Shown piece after piece: positions 4,916 through 38,719 of a DNA stretch of 64,000 nucleotides (positions are counted from its first letter, which is position 1; each line of letters opens with the position of its first letter). The position numbers and the translations under genes are program-made. Origin of the DNA: Nitrospira sp. BO4 (GTDB lineage: Bacteria > Nitrospirota > Nitrospiria > Nitrospirales > Nitrospiraceae); the NCBI GenBank assembly GCA_030144965.1, contig JAMPUU010000016.1, positions 62,001-126,000 on the forward strand, written 5' to 3'. Under the pieces are notes generated by a model. The model was given only the letters and a program-made list of their open reading frames with translations. It was not told where the DNA came from and searched no databases.

Positions 4916-5000
4916 TCTCCTTTCTCTGTTCCTGGCAGCCGGGTAACATTCTCATTTCGGCGTGAGACAGCCTCATGTCAAACCCAAGGGTTCCGGCGCA

Positions 5001-6611
5001 TCAGCCGGCAAAGCGCCGATCTCCCAAGCCCAGGCGGACCGATTCTACATCGAGCTCATGTTCCAATCGGTGCAGCAGCTCGTCGCTGATGGTGCCATCA
5101 TTGCGCAGCTTGATCAACGCGAGTCGTTCGGCGCTTATGGTTTCATGCCGGAGCAGTCGAAACGCCTCAGCCACTTCGTTTGTGCAATCGGAATCAACCG
5201 GACCGGTCGGCTCATAGCGTTGAAGCCGTTGCTGATAATGTGTGTGCAACCGGTCAAGGTGATCCGGCATGACTCGATCATCATCGGCGAATGTCTCCAA
5301 ACGAGTCAATGCGGCTTTAGCGGCGTGCGCGCGTGCCCCCATTTCCTCATGTTCGAGACTCCGGTCTTCTTCCAGTTTCAAGGCGCGGATCAAGGGGGCA
5401 AGGGAGAGACCTTGCAGAACGAGCGTGGCAAGAATCACCGAGAAGCTGAGTAAGATGATTTCCGCTCGGAACGGGAAGGAAGTTCCGGCGGTTGTGGTCA
5501 CGGGCAATGCAAGAGCGGCCGCCAACGTAACGATTCCACGCATCCCGGTCCATCCTACGATCAGCAGATGTGGCCATGGCGGCATGGGATCGCGACGGCG
5601 AAGCGACGGGCTGACGAGTCGCGGCACGATGGCTCCCAAGGGAACCCAGAGCAGACGAACCACGATCACGGTGACGCTGATCACCACCCCGGTAAAGGCG
5701 AGGGGTGCAAACTGATCGGCTGGGATTGTCTCGCTCAGCGTTCTCAGTTGAAGCCCGATAAGAATAAAGATGACGCCGTTCAAGATGAACACCAGCAGTT
5801 CCCAAACGGCCCGTCCTTGAATGCGGGTGATTGGCGCTACGTCCGCGCTAAAATGCTGCCGCAGATACAGCCCGCCAGCGACGCAGGCCAATACAGCGGA
5901 GGAGTGCACTTGTTCGGCCATCACCCAAGCTATGTAGGGGGCCAACAGTGTGACGGCAATTTCGGTGAGGCTGTCGGTCGTCAATTGTCTAAGGACCAAT
6001 CGCGCCATTAGACCGACCGCCAGACCGACGAGAATGCCACCGAGTCCGGCCAACACGAACTGGAGAAGCGTGTCGCGAAGGATGAATGTTCCGCTTGCCG
6101 CTGCCGCAACGGCGGTCCGGTAGAGGATCAGCGCGGTTGCATCATTCACCAGGCTTTCGCCTTCCAAAATCGTCACGAGGCGGTTGGGGATGCCCAAACG
6201 CTTGGCGATGGCCGTTGCCGAGACTGCATCCGGGGGCGAAACAATGGCTCCCAGGGCTATAGCTTCCGCCCAGCCTATTCCCGGCAACGCGACGTGAGCC
6301 ACGGCGGCGACCGCCGCTGTCGTCGCCAACACCAAGCCGACCGCAAGCATTGAGATCGGGCGGATATTGTTTCGAAATTCACGAAGGGACGTAAAATAAG
6401 CGGCCGCCCAGAGGATTGGCGGCAGGAAGACCAAGAATACAAGATCGGGATCCAGGTGGACGGCCGGAAGACCCGGTATCAAACCCAGTATCAAACCGCC
6501 GATGACGAGCAGAATCGGATACGGAATCAGGAGCTTATGCGCAGCCGTCGTCAGCGCTAGGACCGCCGTCAGTAGGAGAATGATAGTCTCAATTTGATGC
6601 AACCCTCCCAT
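5001..6611 (-). CDS. Na+/H+ antiporter, CPA1 type
   Basis: 536 residues from the ATG at 6611, which follows AGGAGCACCACG; a longer frame upstream has no ribosome site. The first ~430 residues are a run of about 12 hydrophobic segments of the NhaP/YjcE-like monovalent cation:proton antiporter family. A typical core 'GAIVSPPDAVSATAIAKRL' followed by 'EGESLVNDATALIL' contains the proton/cation-binding acidic residues of transmembrane segments 5 and 6. A cytoplasmic tail of about 100 residues is rich in charged helices ('RSLEHEEMGARAHAAKAALT'). The role should be pH/Na+ homeostasis. It is preceded on the same strand, 106 bp away, by the pirin gene. Confidence 0.85.
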   Translation of the reverse strand: MGGLHQIETIILLLTAVLALTTAAHKLLIPYPILLVIGGLILGLIPGLPAVHLDPDLVFLVFLPPILWAAAYFTSLREFRNNIRPISMLAVGLVLATTAAVAAVAHVALPGIGWAEAIALGAIVSPPDAVSATAIAKRLGIPNRLVTILEGESLVNDATALILYRTAVAAAASGTFILRDTLLQFVLAGLGGILVGLAVGLMARLVLRQLTTDSLTEIAVTLLAPYIAWVMAEQVHSSAVLACVAGGLYLRQHFSADVAPITRIQGRAVWELLVFILNGVIFILIGLQLRTLSETIPADQFAPLAFTGVVISVTVIVVRLLWVPLGAIVPRLVSPSLRRRDPMPPWPHLLIVGWTGMRGIVTLAAALALPVTTTAGTSFPFRAEIILLSFSVILATLVLQGLSLAPLIRALKLEEDRSLEHEEMGARAHAAKAALTRLETFADDDRVMPDHLDRLHTHYQQRLQRYEPTGPVDSDCTNEVAEAFRLLRHETISAERLALIKLRNDGTISDELLHRLEHELDVESVRLGLGDRRFAG

Positions 6612-6717
6612 CGTGGTGCTCCTTAAAGACAGCGGCCTGCGTTCCCGTCTCCGGCATAGTGCCTTGGGCACACACAGTCAGTGCAACCGCCGTAGCCCTC
6701 ATTCGAGAGTCCTGTGG

Positions 6718-7467
6718 TCACACCTCTAGCGCCCGATCAGTCTCCCAGATCAAGATTTCCGCTCCATGAGTCTTCCCGGCTGTCAGCCGTCTGACTCCGG
6801 CTGCGGTGAGCCGCGCTTCATCGCCGGCTTCCAAATGCCCTGCGCCTTCCAGTTCCGCAGAGTCCTTTGTCACAAACAGATGAATGTACGGGGCATCGGG
6901 AACCTGCGCTGCCTCTCCGGGCCTAAGCTTTCCGCCCCACAGCACGGCTCCTTTCTGTCTGATCGAAATGGCGGCTTGGTGCCCTCGTCCGGAGGCGATT
7001 GGAACGAGCCCTCCTTTGTTCAACTGTCCGTTGATGTCGAGCTGCTCATAGCCAGGCTTTATACTCTCCTGATCAGGTGGCACCCACATTTGGATGAAGT
7101 GGACGTCCTTCTCGCCTTGCGGATTCATCTCGGAGTGCCAAATTCCGGTTCCGGCGCTCATCCGCTGGGCCAACCCCGGATAGATGATCCCGCTGTGACC
7201 TTCCGAGTCCTTATGCTCCAGTTCTCCGTCCAGAACCCAGGTCACGATCTCCATGTCTCGATGGGGATGAGTACGGAACCCGGTGTTCGGCTTGACCACA
7301 TCATCGTTGTGCACCAACAGCAAGCCATGGTGCGTGTTGGTCGGATCGTAATGATGCGAGAAACTAAAGCTGTGCCGAGAATCCAACCAGCCTGCTTGAG
7401 TATGGAAGCGTTCCTGTCCGCGACGGATTTTCACCGCTGTCTTCGTCGCCTGCGTATCTCTGATCAT
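6718..7467 (-). CDS. Pirin family protein
   Basis: 249 residues from ATG 7467, chosen because GGAAAGGAGCGGGGCC lies directly upstream; an in-frame ATG 36 bp earlier has no such site. Bicupin of the pirin/YhhW family: the N-terminal cupin carries the iron ligands in 'FRTHPHRDMEIVTWVLDG', and further on 'GTGIWHSEMNP'. Pirins such as E. coli YhhW have quercetin 2,3-dioxygenase activity; others act as redox-sensing regulators. The gene is divergent from an HxlR-type regulator (7620), a recurrent pairing that suggests control of pirin by that regulator in response to electrophile or quinone stress (inference). Confidence 0.88.
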   Translation of the reverse strand: MIRDTQATKTAVKIRRGQERFHTQAGWLDSRHSFSFSHHYDPTNTHHGLLLVHNDDVVKPNTGFRTHPHRDMEIVTWVLDGELEHKDSEGHSGIIYPGLAQRMSAGTGIWHSEMNPQGEKDVHFIQMWVPPDQESIKPGYEQLDINGQLNKGGLVPIASGRGHQAAISIRQKGAVLWGGKLRPGEAAQVPDAPYIHLFVTKDSAELEGAGHLEAGDEARLTAAGVRRLTAGKTHGAEILIWETDRALEV

Positions 7468-7563
7468 GGCCCCGCTCCTTTCCGGCGATCCCTGCATCGC
7501 CACTTTGATCTTGGTTCGTCACACCCGATTCTGTATAAGACGGATCGCGACCAAAACAAGACG

Positions 7564-7587
7564 GCACCATTCGGTGCGGCAGGCACC
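7564..7587. promoter_or_regulatory. Alternating GCACC/GGTGC half-sites in the pirin-hxlR gap
   Basis: In the divergent intergenic region, GCACC (7564-7568), GGTGC (7573-7577) and GCACC (7583-7587) form two overlapping inverted repeats. HxlR dimers bind inverted repeats in such gaps, so this is a plausible operator controlling both genes. The assignment rests only on position and symmetry. Confidence 0.35.
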
Positions 7588-7619
7588 AACTGGATACCGA
7601 GCGGTGTAATGGAGAGCCG

Positions 7620-7934
7620 ATGGCCAAGAAACGGACATGCCCGGCGGAATCGACGGTCGAACTCATCGGCGGCCGGTGGAAGATCGTCATTCTGTGGTAC
7701 CTCTTCCGGGGCGTCAAACGCTTTTCCGAGCTGCAACGGGCGCTCACCGGAATTACGCAGAAGGTATTGACGCAACAGCTCAGGGACATGGAGCGGGATG
7801 GCATCGTAACACGGACCGTCTACGCCCAAGTTCCTCCCAAAGTCGAGTACTCGGTCACGCCCATGGGTTTAAGTCTCAAACCCGTCGTAGAGGCCATGCA
7901 CCAATGGGGAGTTGATCACAGACCTCCCGAATAA
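7620..7934 (+). CDS. HxlR family transcriptional regulator
   Basis: 104 residues, a single winged helix-turn-helix domain. Diagnostic features are the N-terminal Cys ('TCPAESTVELIGGRWKIVIL'), the 'GVKRFSELQRALTGITQKVL' recognition region and the wing 'VPPKVEYSVTPMG'. HxlR/MarR-like proteins with a Cys near the N-terminus (Cys7) often sense electrophiles or disulfide stress through that residue. The gene is divergent from pirin, with the two starts separated by about 150 bp holding a candidate operator. Confidence 0.9.
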   Translation: MAKKRTCPAESTVELIGGRWKIVILWYLFRGVKRFSELQRALTGITQKVLTQQLRDMERDGIVTRTVYAQVPPKVEYSVTPMGLSLKPVVEAMHQWGVDHRPPE

Positions 7935-8005
7935 GCCGACGGCGGGACGGTCATCTTGTACTGCATCATGATCGTGGTATTGAGCAGTCTATAAATCGGG
8001 CGCGC

Positions 8006-8036
8006 GTCTGGCCGAAGCGGAACGCTTCGGCCAGAC
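8006..8036. terminator. Strong hairpin between convergent genes
   Basis: A perfect 13-bp stem (GTCTGGCCGAAGC / GCTTCGGCCAGAC) with a 5-nt loop lies between the convergent HxlR and alcohol dehydrogenase genes. The T-tract is absent on both strands, so efficiency is uncertain, but position and stability fit a bidirectional terminator. Confidence 0.6.
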
Positions 8037-8048
8037 ATCCTGCAAGCG

Positions 8049-9068
8049 TTACGCATTCATAGTGAGGACAGCACGGAACCGCACCTCGCTCCTCATCATC
8101 TGCTGATAGGCCTCACCTGCCCGGGCCAGTGGGTAGCATTGGATCATGGGGCGCACTCCAGCGTGTGTGCTGAAGCGCAACGTATCCTCGGAATCTTTGG
8201 CCGTGCCGGAGGGCCAACCTTGGATGGAGGTGCGCTTCAGGATCAGCGTGGCGGCGTTGACCGTAATGGGGTCGCCTGGGGCTGCCACGACCAACAACGT
8301 GCCGCTGGGGCTCAACCCCTCCAATAGTGCCGAGATCCCTTTGCCGTCAGGAGCTGTGGCCAGGATGACCCTTGCTCCACCCAGTTGTTGCAGTGCTTCG
8401 GCTGGATTGGCCGAGGCCGCATCGATGTAATGCCCGGCCCCCAGTCTTTTCGCCAGAGGTTCCTTGTCTTTCCCTCGGCCGATGGCGACTGTCATAAATC
8501 CCATCTTGGCTGCATACTGCACTCCCAAGTGTCCCAGTCCTCCGATCCCCTGCACAGCGACGAGGTCACCGGCTCGCGCTCCACTGTTCCGGAGGCTGTT
8601 AAACGTGGTAATGCCGGCGCAGAGCAGTGGGGCGGCCTCCTCCGCCGCCAGTTCATCCGGCAAGAGCGCCACAGCTTCCACCGGCACGACGAGGTAGTCG
8701 GCCCATCCTCCGTCGTAGCTGATGCCACAGATCTGCCCGAAACGGCAGAGAATGAAATCGCCGCGGCGGCATGATTCGCAACGGCCGCAGTGCCCGCCAT
8801 GCCATCCGACTCCGACCCGTCGCCCTTGTTTCCACCCCGTGACGTTTGGTCCGGCCTTGTCGATCCGTCCCGCGACCTCATGGCCGGGAATGCGGGGATA
8901 TTGAAGTCCCGGCCAGTAGCCTTCTTTTACAAACATGTCGCTATGGCAAACCCCGCAAGCCTCAACCTTGATTCGAACCTGCCCTGGACCGGGTTCCGGA
9001 ACCTCGCGCTCGACGACCTCCCACTCACCGCCGGGTTTACTCGCTTGTACCGCTTGCATCCGAGCCAT
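8049..9068 (-). CDS. Zinc-dependent alcohol dehydrogenase
   Basis: 339 residues, the usual length for class-AdhA/AdhT medium-chain dehydrogenases. Visible features: catalytic zinc site 'CGVCHSD' and 'PGHEVAG'; structural zinc cysteines in 'CGRCESCRRGDFILC'; and the Rossmann NAD(P) motif 'GIGGLGHLGVQYAAKMG' at about 175-190. It should oxidise primary alcohols or reduce aldehydes in the cytoplasm. It stands alone on the minus strand, with AGGAGGTACATC in front of the start. Substrate cannot be read from sequence. Confidence 0.88.
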   Translation of the reverse strand: MARMQAVQASKPGGEWEVVEREVPEPGPGQVRIKVEACGVCHSDMFVKEGYWPGLQYPRIPGHEVAGRIDKAGPNVTGWKQGRRVGVGWHGGHCGRCESCRRGDFILCRFGQICGISYDGGWADYLVVPVEAVALLPDELAAEEAAPLLCAGITTFNSLRNSGARAGDLVAVQGIGGLGHLGVQYAAKMGFMTVAIGRGKDKEPLAKRLGAGHYIDAASANPAEALQQLGGARVILATAPDGKGISALLEGLSPSGTLLVVAAPGDPITVNAATLILKRTSIQGWPSGTAKDSEDTLRFSTHAGVRPMIQCYPLARAGEAYQQMMRSEVRFRAVLTMNA

Positions 9069-9262
9069 GATGTACCTCCTATCTCAACGTTCAAATGGGA
9101 GCGAGCTCCGATCGAGTCGGAGCATTGCAAGAGATCGCCTGAATCTGGGTAGAGACGTCTGCATGCCGACCCGTATGCGTGTTAAGTGAGTATGACCGAT
9201 CGATGATCGTGGCTCAAGATTGGATGCCAGCCGTGCCACTATCAATAGGCTCTATTGTGTGG

Positions 9263-30064: not shown

Positions 30065-31534
30065 ATGTGCAGGTTCTTCCTATTGGGTAGTTTTCTCGCT
30101 CTTGTCGCTCTGTCCGTCGGCTGTGCTGCCTTCTCCAGGGAGACTATTCGGTCGAGTAGCTCATTTGAGGAGAAATCCTTCCTAGCATCGGATCTCTTGC
30201 CCCAAGGTCTGGCTGTTGGTGATGTCAGCTCACACGGGGCTTTACTCTGGCTGCGTACTGATGGGCCGGCATCGATTCAGGTTGAGTGGGCACCAGTCTC
30301 CATGTGGGAACGGGCTTCGAAACTGGCGTCGGTAGTGGCTCTCGCATCGAGGACGACATACGTGACGACGACCGCGGAAGCGGATTACACGCTGACCATC
30401 CCTCTTGACGGTCTAAGCCCTTCGACACGCTATCGTTATCATATTTTGAGCGGTTCAGCCGACCAGACCGGAAAGCAGCTGGCGGGGAAGCTTGCAGCAA
30501 GGGGAGAATTTCTCACCCTGCCGGATGAGAAGACCTCCGCGCCCGTGACGTTTGCCTGGAGCGGAGACCTTGGTGGCCAAGGACGATGCCGCCAAGGAGC
30601 AGGTGGCTATCCTATCTTTGACGTCATCCAGCGACAGGAGATCGACTTCTTTCTATTCCTCGGTGATACCGTCTATGGCGATAATCCTTGCCCCTCGCCG
30701 CCAAACGAGCCCGGAGCCGATTTCAAAGCCACGACGCTGCAGACCTATCGAGTGCGCCATCGCTATCAACGCGGCGCTGCGGCGCTCCAGCGATTTTTGA
30801 GGACGGTGCCTGTTTATGTGGTCTGGGATGACCATGAGGTTCGTGACAATTTCTCAGGCCCGTTTGATGAGCAAATGCCCGGTGGTCGGCAGGCGCTTCG
30901 GGAATACTGGCCGATCGCTTCTCCCGATGATGATCCGAATCGGATGTATCGCAGCATTCGCTACGGGGCCGATCTTGAGCTCTTTATTCTGGACACGCGA
31001 CAGTATCGGAGCCGGAACGAGGATCAAGACGGTCCTTCTAAAACAATGCTCGGGACTGCGCAATTGCGATGGCTGCTCGACGGATTCCGTGCGTCCACGG
31101 CAACTTGGAAAGTCATTGTGACCTCTGTTCCGCTGTCGGTGGTGAAAGGTGGTGTGGGCAACGATGGGTGGGGCGGTGAACCGAACGGCACCGGCTTTGA
31201 GCGCGAACGGCAGGTGATTGTCGACGCAATTCTTGGACACAAGATCAAGAACGTTGTGTTCCTTGCGGGGGATGTGCATTGGGTACAGGCCAATGCCTAT
31301 GATCCTGATCAGGACGGTATCATTGATTTTCACGAGTATATGGTTGGACCTCTCTCGGCCCGGCCTGGAAGGATGACTGCGGCCAGTGAGACGCTGCATC
31401 CAAGGCGGCTGATCAACGAATCGGGATACCAGAACTTCGGCCTGATCCGTGTCACGAAGAACACGTTCGAAGTGACGGTGGTGGACGAGGCAGGCGAGAA
31501 GCGATTTTTTCACGTCGTGGAGGCTCGTCCGTAG
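30065..31534 (+). CDS. PhoD-like alkaline phosphatase, lipoprotein
   Basis: 489 residues. The signal sequence ends in a lipobox (LSVGC), so the enzyme is probably envelope-anchored. The PhoD N-domain ('GLAVGDVSSHGALLWLRTDG') precedes the metallophosphatase domain with metal ligands in 'FAWSGDLGGQGRC', 'DFFLFLGDTVYGDNPC' and 'YVVWDDHEVRDNF', then 'VVFLAGDVHWVQANAY'. PhoD enzymes hydrolyse phosphodiesters and phosphomonoesters using Ca/Fe. Ribosome site TAGGAGTGCCCG is directly before ATG. The classic twin-arginine signal of B. subtilis PhoD is absent here. Confidence 0.87.
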   Translation: MCRFFLLGSFLALVALSVGCAAFSRETIRSSSSFEEKSFLASDLLPQGLAVGDVSSHGALLWLRTDGPASIQVEWAPVSMWERASKLASVVALASRTTYVTTTAEADYTLTIPLDGLSPSTRYRYHILSGSADQTGKQLAGKLAARGEFLTLPDEKTSAPVTFAWSGDLGGQGRCRQGAGGYPIFDVIQRQEIDFFLFLGDTVYGDNPCPSPPNEPGADFKATTLQTYRVRHRYQRGAAALQRFLRTVPVYVVWDDHEVRDNFSGPFDEQMPGGRQALREYWPIASPDDDPNRMYRSIRYGADLELFILDTRQYRSRNEDQDGPSKTMLGTAQLRWLLDGFRASTATWKVIVTSVPLSVVKGGVGNDGWGGEPNGTGFERERQVIVDAILGHKIKNVVFLAGDVHWVQANAYDPDQDGIIDFHEYMVGPLSARPGRMTAASETLHPRRLINESGYQNFGLIRVTKNTFEVTVVDEAGEKRFFHVVEARP

Positions 31535-33507: not shown

Positions 33508-33849
33508 ATGTCAGACGCCTCACATGCGCCCGCACTTCCTATCGCGCCCAATCACCTCGGCAGTCAGGAAATGCTTAATCGAATCATTCTCCGGCCCAGC
33601 AGCGATGTGCAAGGTACGAACATGGACGACGAGACAGTGCTGTTGGATCTGAGTACCGGCCGGTACTACACGTTAAACCGGCTAGGTAGCGTCATTTGGG
33701 AGCAATGTACTGGCGGCAACACAATCGGCAACATCCATGCGGTCCTTTGTGACCGTTTTGATGTCGCTCCAGATCGGGCCCTTGATGATCTCGTCACTCT
33801 GGTAACCCAGATGATCGAGGAAGGGCTACTTCAACAAGATAGGAGGTGA
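33508..33849 (+). CDS. PqqD-like leader-binding protein (lasso B1 type)
   Basis: 113 residues. The C-terminal ~85 residues are a PqqD-like RiPP recognition element: 'DDETVLLDLSTGRYYTLNRL' (three-strand wing), 'GSVIWEQC', and a helical region 'NIHAVLCDRFDVAPDRALDD'. In lasso systems this fold (B1) binds the leader of the precursor and delivers it to the B2 protease. Here an extra N-terminal 25 residues are unstructured. Its stop lies within the ribosome site (AGGAGGTGA) of the precursor gene that follows 6 bp later, so the two are tightly coupled. AAGGAGGGAGTCACC precedes the start. Confidence 0.82.
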   Translation: MSDASHAPALPIAPNHLGSQEMLNRIILRPSSDVQGTNMDDETVLLDLSTGRYYTLNRLGSVIWEQCTGGNTIGNIHAVLCDRFDVAPDRALDDLVTLVTQMIEEGLLQQDRR

Positions 33850-33855
33850 AACAGC

Positions 33856-34023
33856 ATGAAGGCACAACAGAAAGAATCGTATGCCCAACCAGTTCTTGCC
33901 AAGCACGAACTATTGCGGGATATCACCGCAACACGTTCGGGCAATGGACATAAGAACAAGTTCGGGAATTGGGGCAATTTTGGAAATTTTGGAAATTTTG
34001 GTCATCGGGGTGGCCGTCACTAA
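33856..34023 (+). CDS. Candidate RiPP precursor peptide with G-N-F repeats
   Basis: 55 residues, preceded by an ideal ribosome site (AGGAGGTGAAACAGC). Leader (about 1-26): 'SYAQPVLAKHELLRDITAT' carries Y9-x2-P12-x-L14 and a threonine at 24/26, the pattern read by lasso-type PqqD/B1 proteins. Core-like region (about 27-55): Gly/Asn/Phe-rich, with three tandem Asn-Phe-Gly units (residues 41-49, about 33976-34002) after an Asn-Trp-Gly, and a basic end (GHRGGRH). There is no Asp or Glu after residue 22, so no lasso isopeptide bond is possible, and there is no Cys. Position between the PqqD-like and kinase genes supports its being the substrate. The precise cleavage site is unknown. Confidence 0.72.
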   Translation: MKAQQKESYAQPVLAKHELLRDITATRSGNGHKNKFGNWGNFGNFGNFGHRGGRH

Positions 34024-34040
34024 AGTTTGATGGGCCGGGA

Positions 34041-34068
34041 GCTGGCTGTTTCGCAAGAAGCAGCCAGT
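34041..34068 (+). terminator. GCAA-tetraloop hairpin after the precursor gene
   Basis: Twelve-pair stem (34041-34052 with 34057-34068, including two G-U pairs in RNA) closed by a GCAA (GNRA) tetraloop, 18 bp after the precursor stop. The 3' flank TCTACCTTTC is only weakly T-rich, so partial termination or 3'-end stabilisation is more likely than full termination. In RiPP loci such an element keeps precursor mRNA in excess over the modifying enzymes. Confidence 0.5.
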
Positions 34069-34123
34069 CTACCTTTCAATCCACGTCGAGTAAGTGAGTA
34101 TAGACGTCGACTTGAGGAGAAGC

Positions 34124-35161
34124 ATGTCGAGTTGTGTAGTCAATCAGCCCATGACCGAGTATCTATTTTCTCTCTATGGGAAGTCAGTGCGCTATGTCAC
34201 GATGTCTCCCTTCCTTGCTGCCCCAGTGAATGAATTGCTGAAACACTTTCAGCGAACCTCGCTTGACGAATCCGCTCCGCTCACTCTGTGGTTCCAGGCT
34301 GCTAAGAACCGAGCTGATATTCCTCTGATCATGTCGCCGCTGGCGCGTCGACTATATTCTGGAACCGGCGAAGAGCTCGGGGATCAACGGCCGACAGGGT
34401 TGCCGTACGAGGTATTTTATGACGAAGGACGTCTAATAGCGGACTTTTCCGATGTTGGAGTGCTGGTGATTGATGCCAAGCAACAGAAAGCCGATGGCTA
34501 CTTGATCAATCCCGAGACTATTCACGAAGGTCTGATTGAGTACTTGTTTCACCTCGCCTTGATCGAACTCCTGCGATACGAGGAGCTCTATACTGTTCAT
34601 GCAACCGCGCTGGAGAAATATGGCCGGGCGGTCTTGATTCCAGGGAATAGCGGACGCGGTAAGACGACATCATTTATCTCGCTGCTTCGATCAGGCTATC
34701 GCTATCTTTCCGACGATCATCCGTTGATCAGAGATGCCGGCACACATGTCGATATTCTGCCCTTCCCAATCAAGATCAACGTGACCGAAGAAACAATCGC
34801 GTTTTTCCCAGAACTGAGAAATGCGCCTGATCACATACTGCATCCAGGTTTCCCCAAGCGGGGGTTTTACGCGGAGGAGCTCTACCCGACCTCAGTGGGT
34901 GAGTGTTGCCACCCAGCCATCATGCTGTTCCCCCATGTCGTCCACTCCACTCACAGCCATTTGGAACCCCTTCCAAAGAGCCGTGCAATGGAACTCCTCC
35001 TTCCCCAGGCCTTGCTGGTCTATGATTCTGAGGTCGCGAGACGAGAATTCCGGGTCTTGGCGAAACTCGTTCAGCAGGTGGATTGCTACCGGTTGCACTT
35101 TGGACGAGATATCCTTGACCTCCCGCAATTAATCACCCCGCTTCTTGAGCAGGCGAGATGA
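34124..35161 (+). CDS. HprK-like P-loop kinase of the RiPP cluster
   Basis: 345 residues from ATG 34124, chosen for the ribosome site TTGAGGAGAAGC; a GTG at 34094 is a weaker alternative. The C-terminal half resembles the HPr kinase/phosphorylase catalytic core: 'VHATALEKYGRAVLIPGNSG' with Walker A GNSGRGKT at 174-181, and the acidic pair 'YLSDDHP' (Asp197/198). The N-terminal ~150 residues have no recognised family. In paeninodin-type lasso clusters a related kinase phosphorylates a serine of the precursor. Here the only Ser residue after the leader is Ser28, with Thr24/Thr26 nearby, so the acceptor, if peptide, would be close to the leader/core boundary. Overlaps the next gene (ATGATG over TGA). 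Confidence 0.82.
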   Translation: MSSCVVNQPMTEYLFSLYGKSVRYVTMSPFLAAPVNELLKHFQRTSLDESAPLTLWFQAAKNRADIPLIMSPLARRLYSGTGEELGDQRPTGLPYEVFYDEGRLIADFSDVGVLVIDAKQQKADGYLINPETIHEGLIEYLFHLALIELLRYEELYTVHATALEKYGRAVLIPGNSGRGKTTSFISLLRSGYRYLSDDHPLIRDAGTHVDILPFPIKINVTEETIAFFPELRNAPDHILHPGFPKRGFYAEELYPTSVGECCHPAIMLFPHVVHSTHSHLEPLPKSRAMELLLPQALLVYDSEVARREFRVLAKLVQQVDCYRLHFGRDILDLPQLITPLLEQAR

Positions 35162-36393
35162 TGATGGAACGGCCCATCGACCGTCAGTTCCCGCTGTCAC
35201 CAGAATCCGAACTCCTGGTCTGGTGTGCCCGTACGGTTATGACCGATGATCTAAAGACACGTATCAGGCAAAGAGTGCAAGAATTGCTGGACTGGTCGAT
35301 CCTCGGTGAGATGGCGGAATATCATGGCGTCATCCCACTATTGTACAGGAATCTCTCCGCAGTCGCGCCCGACCTCGTGCCGGCCGAATCATTAAGCCGG
35401 TTACGGCACAAAACCAAGGTCGGCGCACTACTTAATTGGTCGCTCGCCCAAGAACTCATCACGCTATGTGAAACGTTCAACGCGCGTGGAGTCCCGATCA
35501 TTCCGATCAAGGGGGCCACTCTAGCCGTATTGGCGTATGGCGATCTGGCTCTTCGCGATTTTACCGACCTCGACCTGCTTGTTGCCGAAGGCTCCATTGC
35601 GGAGGCACAGGCTATCCTATCGACGCTGGGCTACGAGCGAAGAATGGCAAAGGCGGAGCTGGGTAATGCGCATCATGATGACGGGCCGCATCATGTGTTC
35701 GTGAAGCCTCGGACGCTGTGTCGAGTGGATCTGCAATGGCAGATGGCCCATCAACACTTTGTCTTTCGATTAGATCGCCCGGAATTCTGGAAGCGGTGGA
35801 CCTCTGTGGTGTTCGAGAATCACACGGTTTCAGGATTGGCACCAGAAGATTTGCTGATTGTACTGTGTGTTCATGGATCGAAGCATGCCTGGGAACATCT
35901 CAAATGGGTATGTGATGTGGCCGAACTCCTTCGCGCCCAGCCCGATCTCGACTGGGAGAGGATTGTCCGAGATGCGTCGGATTGGCACTGCCGACGCCTG
36001 GTTTATATGGGATTGTCGCTTGCACACCTGATGCTTGATGCTCCTCTCCCTGAGGGGGTGCTTGCGAGGCTCAGGATTGATACAGATGTACAAGCACTTG
36101 CCCACCGAATGCCGGCTTCCTTACTGACGAACGGCTGTGATGGAGTCTGGGAAGAACAGACGGCTGCACTCTATTTTTCCCTAAAAGATTCATGGTGGGA
36201 GCGGTGGCGATTTGGCTTACTGCTGTGTCGTGCTCATAGCCCTGTGGCGGCAACTCCTCCTCGGTGGTTTCGCTGGCGCACTGCCCTCTCTTGTCTCTCT
36301 TGCTTGATTGTTCCCCTTCATCGAACGATCAAGCGGCTTCTTTCACCTGAAATTCGTGGAGCGATCAATCGTTGGGTCGCACAAGGTGGTTAG
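35158..36393 (+). CDS. Nucleotidyltransferase-fold protein of the RiPP cluster
   Basis: 411 residues. The nucleotidyltransferase (PF14907-like) core is at about 105-200: 'GVPIIPIKGATLAVLAYGDL' then 'ALRDFTDLDLLV', with Asp137 and Asp139 as metal ligands and the substrate-side Lys118. Further helices follow (for example 'LIVLCVHGSKHAWEHLKWVC'). Proteins of this kind recur next to HprK-like kinases in lasso and other RiPP loci and are thought to add nucleotides or sugar phosphates to the peptide or to a phosphorylated intermediate. Translationally coupled to the kinase by overlap. Confidence 0.82.
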   Translation: MMMERPIDRQFPLSPESELLVWCARTVMTDDLKTRIRQRVQELLDWSILGEMAEYHGVIPLLYRNLSAVAPDLVPAESLSRLRHKTKVGALLNWSLAQELITLCETFNARGVPIIPIKGATLAVLAYGDLALRDFTDLDLLVAEGSIAEAQAILSTLGYERRMAKAELGNAHHDDGPHHVFVKPRTLCRVDLQWQMAHQHFVFRLDRPEFWKRWTSVVFENHTVSGLAPEDLLIVLCVHGSKHAWEHLKWVCDVAELLRAQPDLDWERIVRDASDWHCRRLVYMGLSLAHLMLDAPLPEGVLARLRIDTDVQALAHRMPASLLTNGCDGVWEEQTAALYFSLKDSWWERWRFGLLLCRAHSPVAATPPRWFRWRTALSCLSCLIVPLHRTIKRLLSPEIRGAINRWVAQGG

Positions 36394-36405
36394 ATAGCAT
36401 CCTTT

Positions 36406-36879
36406 ATGAGTCTACTCGTGAAAAAGTACTGGACTGTGCTTCGAGTAGGTCTGATCGTAGGGTGGGTTCGTATCTTGTTGCGATTCAACAGTTTGCCGCT
36501 GGTGCTGGAGCGTTTAAGCCTGCGTTCACGGGCCGGACGGTCTGATGATGCTACGATGAGGAGTCTCATCTACTATGTGGATCGTTGGCTCCAACTGTTT
36601 CCCTATAACGAAAGGGGAAACTGCTTTCCGCGGGCATTGGCGCTATATCGACTTGCTCGGCAACTGGGATACCCGGTTCGTTTTCACTGTGGAGTCAGGA
36701 AAGAATCGTCGAATCTCGACGGCCATGCATGGCTCACGTTGGATTCCGAGGCATTCTACGAGCCGGGGAAGCAGTGGCGATGCTTCACCATAACTTTTTC
36801 GTATCCTTCCGATTCAATATCGGGCGTGAGCCGGGTGTCTGCCAGTCACGGTCCACAACTCAGAACCATGAAGTCCTGA
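36406..36879 (+). CDS. Lasso-type B2 transglutaminase-like leader peptidase
   Basis: 157 residues, the usual size for B2 proteins. The catalytic layout of the McjB/B2 family is visible: Cys73 in 'RGNCFPRALALYRLARQLG' and His107 in 'NLDGHAWLTLDSEAFYEPG'; the third residue, Asp in many members, is Glu119 here at the equivalent spacing (+12 from His), by eye. B2 removes the leader peptide presented by B1 (the PqqD-like protein). It lies 12 bp after the nucleotidyltransferase gene. Its presence is the strongest link to lasso-type systems. Confidence 0.85.
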   Translation: MSLLVKKYWTVLRVGLIVGWVRILLRFNSLPLVLERLSLRSRAGRSDDATMRSLIYYVDRWLQLFPYNERGNCFPRALALYRLARQLGYPVRFHCGVRKESSNLDGHAWLTLDSEAFYEPGKQWRCFTITFSYPSDSISGVSRVSASHGPQLRTMKS

Positions 36880-36907
36880 AGACTTTTGCTCCGCGGTTCC
36901 GTTGCCC

Positions 36908-38719
36908 ATGACTATCATGATGAATCGCATAGCTCCATTTCTGATTACGGTCCGCCGTGCGCTTTCATTCGTATGGCAGAGCAGTCCAACATTAGCTATC
37001 AGCAGCATCGTGCTGCGCGTCATCCAGGGACTTCTTCCGTTGATGATGCTGTATCTCACGAAATTGTTGATCGATACCGTGACCGAAGGACTGAAGACTC
37101 CCTCGGACGAATCTTTCTTGACTCGCATCATCATGATCCTTGCGGGGTTAGCGGGTGTTGCGGGCGTTAGTGCCATGCTGAATGTGGCAGCAGGCCTGAT
37201 TTCCAAGATACAAGCTCAAACCGTCACGGATCACATGTACGGGCTCCTTCAGGCAAAGTCGATTGAGGTCGATCTTGAATACTACGAAAATGCGCAGTAT
37301 CAAGATACATTGCATCACGCACAACAAGAGGCTCCCTACCGACCGATTGCCATTCTCAACGCCTTGCTTCAATCGGGGCAAAACAGCATTTCATTGCTCT
37401 CAATGGTGGTCATACTGTGGTGGCTGCATTGGGGGATAATTCCAGTCTTAGTACTGACGGCGATTCCCTACCTCTTGGTGAGGGTGCAGCAATCCAACCT
37501 GCTCTATGCTTGGGAGCGCGAACGCATCCCACTCGAGCGCAAGGCCTGGTACGTCAATACACTGTTGACGCAGGCCACGGCAGCGAAAGAAATCAGGCTG
37601 TTCAACCTGGGGCCTAGGTTGCGAGAATGGTTCCAAGAGACCCGATCGGTGTTACGTCGGGAATTCATTGCTTTAGAGCAACGTTGGGCGGTCAAAACTC
37701 TTATCGCCCAAATCATTGGTGTCGCAGGTGTATTCGGAATCTGCAGCTTTGTAGCGGTCCGAACATTCCATGGGTTACTCACTGTGGGCGACCTGGTCAT
37801 TTGTTTTCAGGCCGTGCAGCGGGCTTCGGGGTTTCTGGAGGGGTTGGGGCAGAGTGTGGCAAGCCTCTATGAGAGCAATCTGTTTCTCACCACATTGGAT
37901 GAGTTCTTGAGTATTCAGTCTCGTTTGCCGACGGCAATACCTCCGAAACCGCTGCCTCGCTCAATCACGCAGGGTATTGTGTTCGATCATGTGTCATTCC
38001 AATACCCACATGAAGAACGTGTGGCGATTCGAGACTTCACGTTCTCAATCGAGCCCGGCGAGCATGTGGCGTTTGTCGGGGCCAACGGCGCCGGAAAGAC
38101 GACATTGGTGAAGCTGTTGTGTCGTCTGTACGATCCATCAGGTGGGCGCATCACAATCGATGGAACGGATCTGCGGGACTACCCTATCACTGATGTTCGA
38201 GGTATGGTCAGCGGTATTTTTCAAGATTTTGTGAAGTTTCAGCTATCGGCAAAAGAGAACATCGTCATGGGTGTGAGATCTTCCGGAGTTGACGATTCCG
38301 CAGTCATCCACGCAGCCAAGCAAGCCGGAGTCCATGAGGTCATCCAACGCTTGCCGCAAGGGTATGACTCATTGCTCGGTAAGCTGTTCGATGGTGGGTC
38401 TGAACTGAGCATCGGGGAATGGCAGAAAGTGGCGCTGGCTAGAGCGTTACTGCGAGATTCGCAAATTCTCGTGCTCGACGAGCCCACCAGTGCGATGGAC
38501 GCCAAAGCGGAGGCAGAGCTGTTCGAGCGGTTTCATGAGCTGGCCCAAGGTCGCATTGCCATTTTGATCAGTCACCGGCTGTCGACAGTGAAAATGGCGG
38601 ATCGGATCTTTGTTGTCGATGAGGGCCAAATCGTGGAACAAGGGACGCATGATGAACTGATGCGACGGCAAGGACTGTACGCCAGCCTCTTTCTGACCCA
38701 AGCCCAGCATTATCAATAA
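36908..38719 (+). CDS. ABC exporter (TMD-NBD fusion) of the RiPP cluster
   Basis: 603 residues from ATG 36908 (TTG at 36902 is possible; ribosome site weak). The N-terminal part is a type-IV ABC exporter membrane domain (about six helices, 15-310), followed by an ATPase domain: Walker A GANGAGKT (391-398), signature 'ELSIGEWQKVALARALL' (LSIGEWQ instead of LSGGQ), Walker B 'ILVLDEPTSAMD' and H-loop 'ILISHRLSTV'. There is no C39 peptidase domain, which agrees with leader removal by the separate B2 protein. It probably exports the mature peptide and may confer immunity. Last gene of the cluster. Confidence 0.88.
   Translation: MTIMMNRIAPFLITVRRALSFVWQSSPTLAISSIVLRVIQGLLPLMMLYLTKLLIDTVTEGLKTPSDESFLTRIIMILAGLAGVAGVSAMLNVAAGLISKIQAQTVTDHMYGLLQAKSIEVDLEYYENAQYQDTLHHAQQEAPYRPIAILNALLQSGQNSISLLSMVVILWWLHWGIIPVLVLTAIPYLLVRVQQSNLLYAWERERIPLERKAWYVNTLLTQATAAKEIRLFNLGPRLREWFQETRSVLRREFIALEQRWAVKTLIAQIIGVAGVFGICSFVAVRTFHGLLTVGDLVICFQAVQRASGFLEGLGQSVASLYESNLFLTTLDEFLSIQSRLPTAIPPKPLPRSITQGIVFDHVSFQYPHEERVAIRDFTFSIEPGEHVAFVGANGAGKTTLVKLLCRLYDPSGGRITIDGTDLRDYPITDVRGMVSGIFQDFVKFQLSAKENIVMGVRSSGVDDSAVIHAAKQAGVHEVIQRLPQGYDSLLGKLFDGGSELSIGEWQKVALARALLRDSQILVLDEPTSAMDAKAEAELFERFHELAQGRIAILISHRLSTVKMADRIFVVDEGQIVEQGTHDELMRRQGLYASLFLTQAQHYQ

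Follow-up and report, generated by a model that had tools for sequence, protein, structure and literature searches.

A cyclase-free Nitrospira locus with lasso-type leader machinery and the probable linear, serine-phosphorylated peptide that it encodes

Phosphorylation of a serine near the start of a peptide core is known from the Linear Polyphosphorylated Peptides (LPPs) of Paenibacillus alginolyticus, reported in 2026, in which the kinase LppK adds up to four phosphates to Ser3 of a linear precursor made without a cyclase and an S3A exchange abolishes the modification (Popov et al. 2026, PMC13381572). LPPs and paeninodins were called restricted to Bacillota in that paper (PMC13381572). In the Bsf lasso system of Bradymonas sediminis, the kinase BsfK likewise phosphorylates Ser3 of BsfA, whose leader follows a Tyr-17/Pro-14/Leu-12 register and is cut by B1/B2 (PMC10368454). 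The lasso peptides pseudomycoidin and paeninodin also depend on B1, B2 and an HprK-type kinase, joined in pseudomycoidin by the nucleotidyltransferase (NT) PsmN, which is needed for hexoses on the pseudomycoidin phosphate, an indirect route via nucleotidylation having been left open (PMC8498205, PMC9266682). Here we analysed a six-gene locus of Nitrospira sp. BO4 (contig JAMPUU010000016.1) in a window of 64,000 nucleotides, the window being the whole stretch of DNA studied. The locus probably makes a linear, Ser3-phosphorylated ribosomally synthesized and post-translationally modified peptide (RiPP) by means of lasso leader machinery without ring closure. The preliminary description of the window had placed six plus-strand genes at 33508-38719, and their positions and order proved correct:

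33508..33849, plus strand: B1, a PqqD-like discrete RiPP recognition element (RRE) of 113 aa (PF05402, 63.2 bits)
33856..34023, plus strand: precursor A, 55 aa, with the ribosome-binding site AGGAGGTG upstream and relatives found by tblastn
33937..33939, plus strand: TCG codon of Ser28, which is core Ser3 and the predicted phosphorylation site (Ser conserved four residues after the leader Thr)
34042..34067, plus strand: predicted RNA hairpin between the precursor and kinase genes (folding, two-sided changes)
34124..35161, plus strand: kinase K, HprK/PEPCK-type, 345 aa from ATG 34124 (HprK_rel_A, 5.7e-17; invariant residues; structure model)
35158..36393, plus strand: nucleotidyltransferase NT (PF14907, 201 bits), 411 aa, overlapping the kinase stop, with invariant Asp residues
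36406..36879, plus strand: B2, a lasso-type cysteine leader peptidase of 157 aa (NF033537, 49.2 bits, cut-off 33)
36902..38719, plus strand: D, an MsbA-like ATP-binding cassette (ABC) exporter with fused transmembrane and nucleotide-binding domains (TIGR02203, 8.2e-85; ABC_membrane and ABC_tran)

The LPP gene set of a discrete RRE, an HprK-type kinase, an NTP transferase and an MsbA-like exporter without a cyclase is present here, and the YxxP leader and the linear core with Ser3 are shared as well. The LPPs, however, are processed by the SipW-like serine peptidase LppS, which cuts after Thr(-1), whereas the Nitrospira locus encodes the cysteine peptidase B2 and Thr is expected at -2. No SpI-like (SipW-type) peptidase was found at the locus, and no protein of the genome matched over the TIGR02228 cut-off. 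The LPP leader consensus YxxPxVLxHQxIxFETxxS is not found either: the Nitrospira precursors read YVQPxxxKHELLRDITAxxS, with YxxP, His and Ser in common, RDIT in place of FET and a Tyr-to-Ser spacing one residue longer. They also have short cores, and they occur outside the Bacillota, to which LPPs were described as restricted. The locus thus works like an LPP system yet departs from it in the peptidase and the leader consensus, and it is not filed as an LPP. With Bsf it has in common B1, B2, a kinase whose target, proven in Bsf and predicted here, is Ser3, and the Tyr-17/Pro-14/Leu-12 register, whereas Bsf forms a Gly1-Asp8 ring and has Ile at -2, in place of the Thr found here, where both cyclase and acidic core residue are missing. 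LPP-style linear, cyclase-free logic is combined in Nitrospira with the peptidase and register of Bsf. Pseudomycoidin and paeninodin differ by their lasso ring, closed by a C protein, and by a phosphate on the C-terminal Ser, and paeninodin-type leaders by a WxxP motif. That kinase and nucleotidyltransferase occur in paeninodin-type lasso clusters had been noted in the preliminary description; its addition that all such clusters carry C no longer holds since the LPPs (PMC13381572). A literature search, with most subscription journals outside its coverage, found no Nitrospira or B2-using LPP counterpart.

Domain searches yielded no family match for the window precursor, which consists of the leader MKAQQKESYAQPVLAKHELLRDITA, a predicted cut after Ala25 and the predicted core TRSGNGHKNKFGNWGNFGNFGNFGHRGGRH; a 78% identical relative occurs in genome G028. 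By tblastn with leader queries, used in place of a looser pattern search that gave mostly noise, 85 distinct precursor-like sequences were obtained. Of these, 56 belong to a main family, 21 to a family found next to two ATP-grasp genes, four to a radical-SAM family (SAM, S-adenosylmethionine) and four to none of these. Leaders are almost fixed (YVQPxxxKHELLRDIT), and cores, 12 to 38 residues long, can barely be aligned. One core position stands out: 54 of the 55 distinct sequences in the main family have Ser four residues downstream of the leader Thr, with all four TCN codons represented and an entropy of 0.13 compared to 2.2-3.8 at other core positions and 0.73 at the following Gly. Such near-invariance amid variable cores, with all four codons in use, argues for selection on this Ser. 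In lasso systems, Thr is the penultimate leader residue, and a cut one residue after it, as assumed here, makes the conserved Ser core Ser3 and places Tyr, Pro and Leu at -17, -14 and -12. Phosphorylation of a C-terminal Ser, as in paeninodin, was considered and rejected in favour of Ser3 since only one of 55 cores ends in Ser. A motif NNGWGNGGxDGVPGxS recurs in 12 of the 55 main-family cores. The source genome holds a second, orphan precursor on contig C17 (L029:9785-9994) with the same leader and the core GKGNCGFGNGGYDGVPGNSNCPDINR; no B1, kinase, NT or B2 gene lies within the 19 kb read around it.

Consistent with a phosphorylated product, the putative kinase appears intact. HprK_rel_A was its best NCBIfam match (5.7e-17, under the cut-off of that family), and the match to Pfam Hpr_kinase_C was likewise under cut-off. 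The AlphaFold model (pLDDT, the predicted local distance difference test score, 88) shows a fold of the phosphoenolpyruvate (PEP) carboxykinase/HprK type and matches PEP carboxykinases, a fold class related to HPr kinase. H169, K190, D207 and D208 (numbered from GTG 34094; assigned by position around the P-loop) are invariant in 17 sequences and correspond to the His-Lys-Asp-Asp catalytic set reported for lasso kinases. The HPr-rel-A system, which resembles the locus in pairing an HprK-related kinase with a PqqD-like chaperone, was rejected as an assignment (TIGR04352/TIGR04353): the kinase model reached 61.7 bits where 200 are required, and the PqqD model 15 bits where 35 are required. The nucleotidyltransferase belongs to NTP_transf_5 (PF14907, 201 bits), with D137, D139 and D191 invariant in 20 homologues; the nearest folds to its AlphaFold model (pLDDT 89) are MenT1, antibiotic nucleotidyltransferases and FKRP, all weak. 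Read from the sequence, the case comprises the gene set, intact catalytic residues, a missing cyclase, a core devoid of acidic residues and a near-invariant Ser.

We propose the following pathway, in which the phosphorylation of Ser3, the position of the cut, the succession of steps and export are derived by homology from the tested systems. B1 would grip the leader via Tyr9-Pro12-Leu14 and present the precursor to the HprK-type kinase, which would put one or more phosphates on Ser28 (core Ser3). The nucleotidyltransferase would then attach another group to this phosphate, which could be a nucleotide or, following what is reported for its homologue PsmN, a hexose. B1/B2 would cleave after Ala25, with Thr24 at -2, and the 30-residue Gly/Asn/aromatic/basic core so freed would be exported by the MsbA-like ABC protein. 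That the product is linear rather than a lasso is close to certain. Phosphorylation of core Ser3 is, by analogy, very likely, and on the same footing we are fairly confident that B2 would cut after Thr-Ala, whereas action of the nucleotidyltransferase on the Ser3 phosphate is only slightly favoured. A linear, phosphorylated and/or nucleotidylated, cleaved and exported peptide had been proposed before; its linear, phosphorylated part is supported by our data, and a nucleotide need not stay on the product, the PsmN precedent being hexoses.

Several points weigh against this pathway. The peptide is known here from genes alone, the product itself being unseen, and the fixed Ser could serve recognition by B1, B2 or the nucleotidyltransferase. 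LppN was without detectable effect in its heterologous host (PMC13381572), which makes the nucleotidyltransferase step weak. In the LPPs the cut follows Thr(-1), and a corresponding cut after Thr24 would make the Ser residue 4. Finally, precursors of the ATP-grasp-adjoining family carry Ser (10 of 21) or Tyr (11 of 21) and nothing else at the equivalent place, and a pure serine kinase leaves the Tyr unexplained there.

The best-placed alternative, which we regard as unlikely, is that no phosphate is involved, kinase and nucleotidyltransferase serving some other partner, and that an unmodified, bacteriocin-like peptide is exported. Besides the product being known from genes alone and LppN inactive in its test host, both enzymes also occur in the source genome with a radical-SAM enzyme and another precursor. 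On the other hand, the core Ser is near-invariant in the proven Ser3 register, the His-Lys-Asp-Asp set is intact, and the kinase is present in every multi-gene main-family locus tabulated.

The leader-processing proteins bear on whether the locus could be an LPP proper that was acquired by transfer from the Bacillota. The best NCBIfam matches of B1 were lasso PqqD chaperones, and among PDB sequences it matched TbiB1, PbaB1 and TfuB1 and then LppB; by these PDB scores alone, the lasso RREs reached 30.7, 27.6 and 24.5 bits and LppB, the weakest of the four, 22.8 bits. B1 would be expected to bind the YxxPxL leader. B2 exceeded the cut-off of NCBIfam lasso_biosyn_B2 (49.2 bits compared to 33). 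Its Cys73, His107 and Glu119, the last of which had been given in brackets in the preliminary description, are invariant in 18 homologues, one of them from a radical-SAM locus. A search of PDB sequences returned no matches for B2 and the nucleotidyltransferase. The best match of the exporter is MsbA (TIGR02203), and relatives that have a full-length version of it show ~75-84% identity. A B1 and B2 leader-processing pair occurs together with a YxxPxL leader as in lasso peptides. Apart from the peptidase, the gene set is like that of the LPPs, and the linear core and Ser3 agree as well; yet B2 in place of the SpI-like LppS, the Tyr-to-Ser distance longer by one, RDIT instead of FET and the higher scores of B1 to lasso RREs than to LppB make an LPP proper improbable.

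A lasso or macrolactam peptide closed in trans by a cyclase encoded elsewhere is less probable still. Several Asn-synthetase-like proteins exist in the genome, and Asp or Glu stands at core positions 7-9 in 15 of the 55 main-family cores. The window core, in contrast, has no Asp or Glu at any position, including positions 7-9 where a lasso peptide needs one, so that a lasso ring would be chemically impossible; Asp and Glu are wholly absent from 12 of the 55 distinct main-family cores. The preliminary description had reported no C homologue anywhere in the window, in agreement with which no Asn-synthetase domain was found on the window's contig. In the whole source genome (4.7 Mb, 30 contigs, 99.97% complete), no Asn-synthetase protein reached the lasso-cyclase cut-off of 525 bits, the best scoring 346 bits. 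This best scorer belongs, with the other Asn-synthetase proteins of contig C14, to a polysaccharide cluster that has no B1/B2. No more than two B2 genes were found in the genome, one in the present locus and one in the radical-SAM locus. One Asn-synthetase-like protein of that polysaccharide cluster (L048:13103-14881) is without the usual MCGI glutaminase start and sits beside an ATP-grasp-like protein.

The genus was searched in the same way. Among 79 Nitrospira genomes, no C exceeded the curated cut-off; seven had a C above 400 bits, and only three of these were among the 30 genomes with a close kinase homologue (>450 bits), compared to 30 x 7 / 79 = 2.7 expected under independence. The overlap between lasso C genes and this locus is no larger than chance would give. 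In genomes G088 and G012 (L115, L116), C, B2 and B1 are adjacent in both loci read, and L115 has an adjoining precursor with the leader YNTPTLVEYGDIAKLTQ and the core GNPSGMFGD (Asp9) as well as a kinase, a nucleotidyltransferase and a methyltransferase-like gene. These are genuine, self-contained lasso clusters, with other leaders and with kinases only distantly related to that of the window, and their detection indicates that the same method would have seen one at the present locus. None of the 31 homologous loci contains C; weak matches of Asn-synthetase queries ~2 kb upstream of several of them turned out to be PurF. A co-evolving cyclase elsewhere and homologous loci with a C protein and acidic core residues had been named in advance as findings that would speak against a cyclase-free system. 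Neither was encountered in the genome, the genus or the neighbourhoods read, and a cyclase in trans was rejected. The locus lacks both decisive features of a lasso peptide, the C protein and the acidic core residue.

B1, kinase, nucleotidyltransferase, B2 and ABC exporter occur together at 31 loci read, a few of which may represent one genome present in two collections; this association is far beyond chance. The usual order is B1, one to three precursors, kinase, nucleotidyltransferase, B2 and exporter. The closest kinase homologues sit on contigs of Nitrospira sp., and the kinase of the same-species genome G091 is identical to that of the window. Outside Nitrospira, a Nitrospinota metagenome-assembled genome (MAG; L103) encodes the kinase and a fused B2-NT protein (L103:1284-2864), resembling the fused B2-NT proteins that lasso clusters of Firmicutes are reported to encode (PMC8498205). 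A Nitrospirales MAG (L104) has kinase and nucleotidyltransferase, and Syntrophomonas has remote loci with B1, B2 and kinase. A decayed lasso cluster, left as a relic under no selection once its cyclase was lost, would fit the gene content, which is that of a kinase-bearing lasso cluster from which C and the ring Asp have been removed. It is nevertheless the least probable alternative given frames and catalytic residues intact in many species, multiplied precursors (85 distinct precursor-like sequences), one to three precursors at each locus, and a conserved Ser and hairpin.

Several Nitrospira carry a second block immediately behind the main locus (L039-L043, L060, L063, L085, L088, L089, L098, L099, L101). 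It comprises two ATP-grasp-type proteins, a further B1, in some cases a kinase, proteins of the fatty-acid hydroxylase (FA_hydroxylase) family, a nucleotidyltransferase-like protein, NT', and several precursors that contain Lys/Thr/Ser as well as Asp/Glu. The second ATP-grasp protein scores 124.7 bits to GRASP_SAV_5884 (ribosomal peptide maturase), under cut-off, and the first only weakly (35.6 bits). The block is a candidate graspetide-like system; as it is mostly without its own B2 or exporter, it may borrow those of the main block. In NT' (L039:1033-2172) the DxD motif is lost (APADPVALV compared to DFTDLDLLV), so this protein is probably inactive or repurposed. A further variant occurs on contig C18 of the source genome (L051, G000:C18:94000-112000, 4921-9224), where B2, kinase, a radical-SAM protein, B1 and nucleotidyltransferase accompany their own precursor ending in FVRPILTRHATLPAVTAAFFGTFSPHTRPR; similar loci are L070, L071 and L072.

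In Nitrospira, kinase-bearing lasso systems may have given rise to a branch without a cyclase independently of the LPPs of Bacillota, with ring closure exchangeable on a chassis of B1, B2, kinase and nucleotidyltransferase (none, lasso C, two ATP-grasp ligases with hydroxylases, or radical-SAM), a proposal that we hold to be evenly balanced. If true, linear Ser3-phosphopeptides would be the common ground state and not a Bacillota oddity. The chassis allows the variants with none, C, ATP-grasp and radical-SAM to be compared directly. The locus would extend cyclase-free phosphopeptides beyond the Bacillota and supply dozens of natural cores in a major nitrifier genus, and B2 and the signal-peptidase-like enzyme are suggested as alternative solutions to the leader-cutting step. 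The B1 and B2 pair, usually read as a lasso marker, here serves a peptide unable to form a lasso. Genome mining that equates B1 and B2 with a lasso would mislabel the locus, and a cyclase requirement would miss it.

For the kinase, ATG 34124, with GAGGAG ahead of it, is a likelier start than GTG 34094, and with this start the 100-bp gap after the precursor gene, described earlier together with its hairpin, holds. The hairpin is strong in 14 of 14 precursor-kinase gaps folded, and the consensus of 12 loci has a predicted 11-bp stem in which four pairs are preserved despite two-sided changes (RNAalifold counts). It probably sets the precursor-to-enzyme expression ratio. The exporter gene has a further in-frame ATG at 36908. 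About 2 kb upstream of the six genes, at window positions 30065-31534, lies a PhoD-like phosphatase gene.

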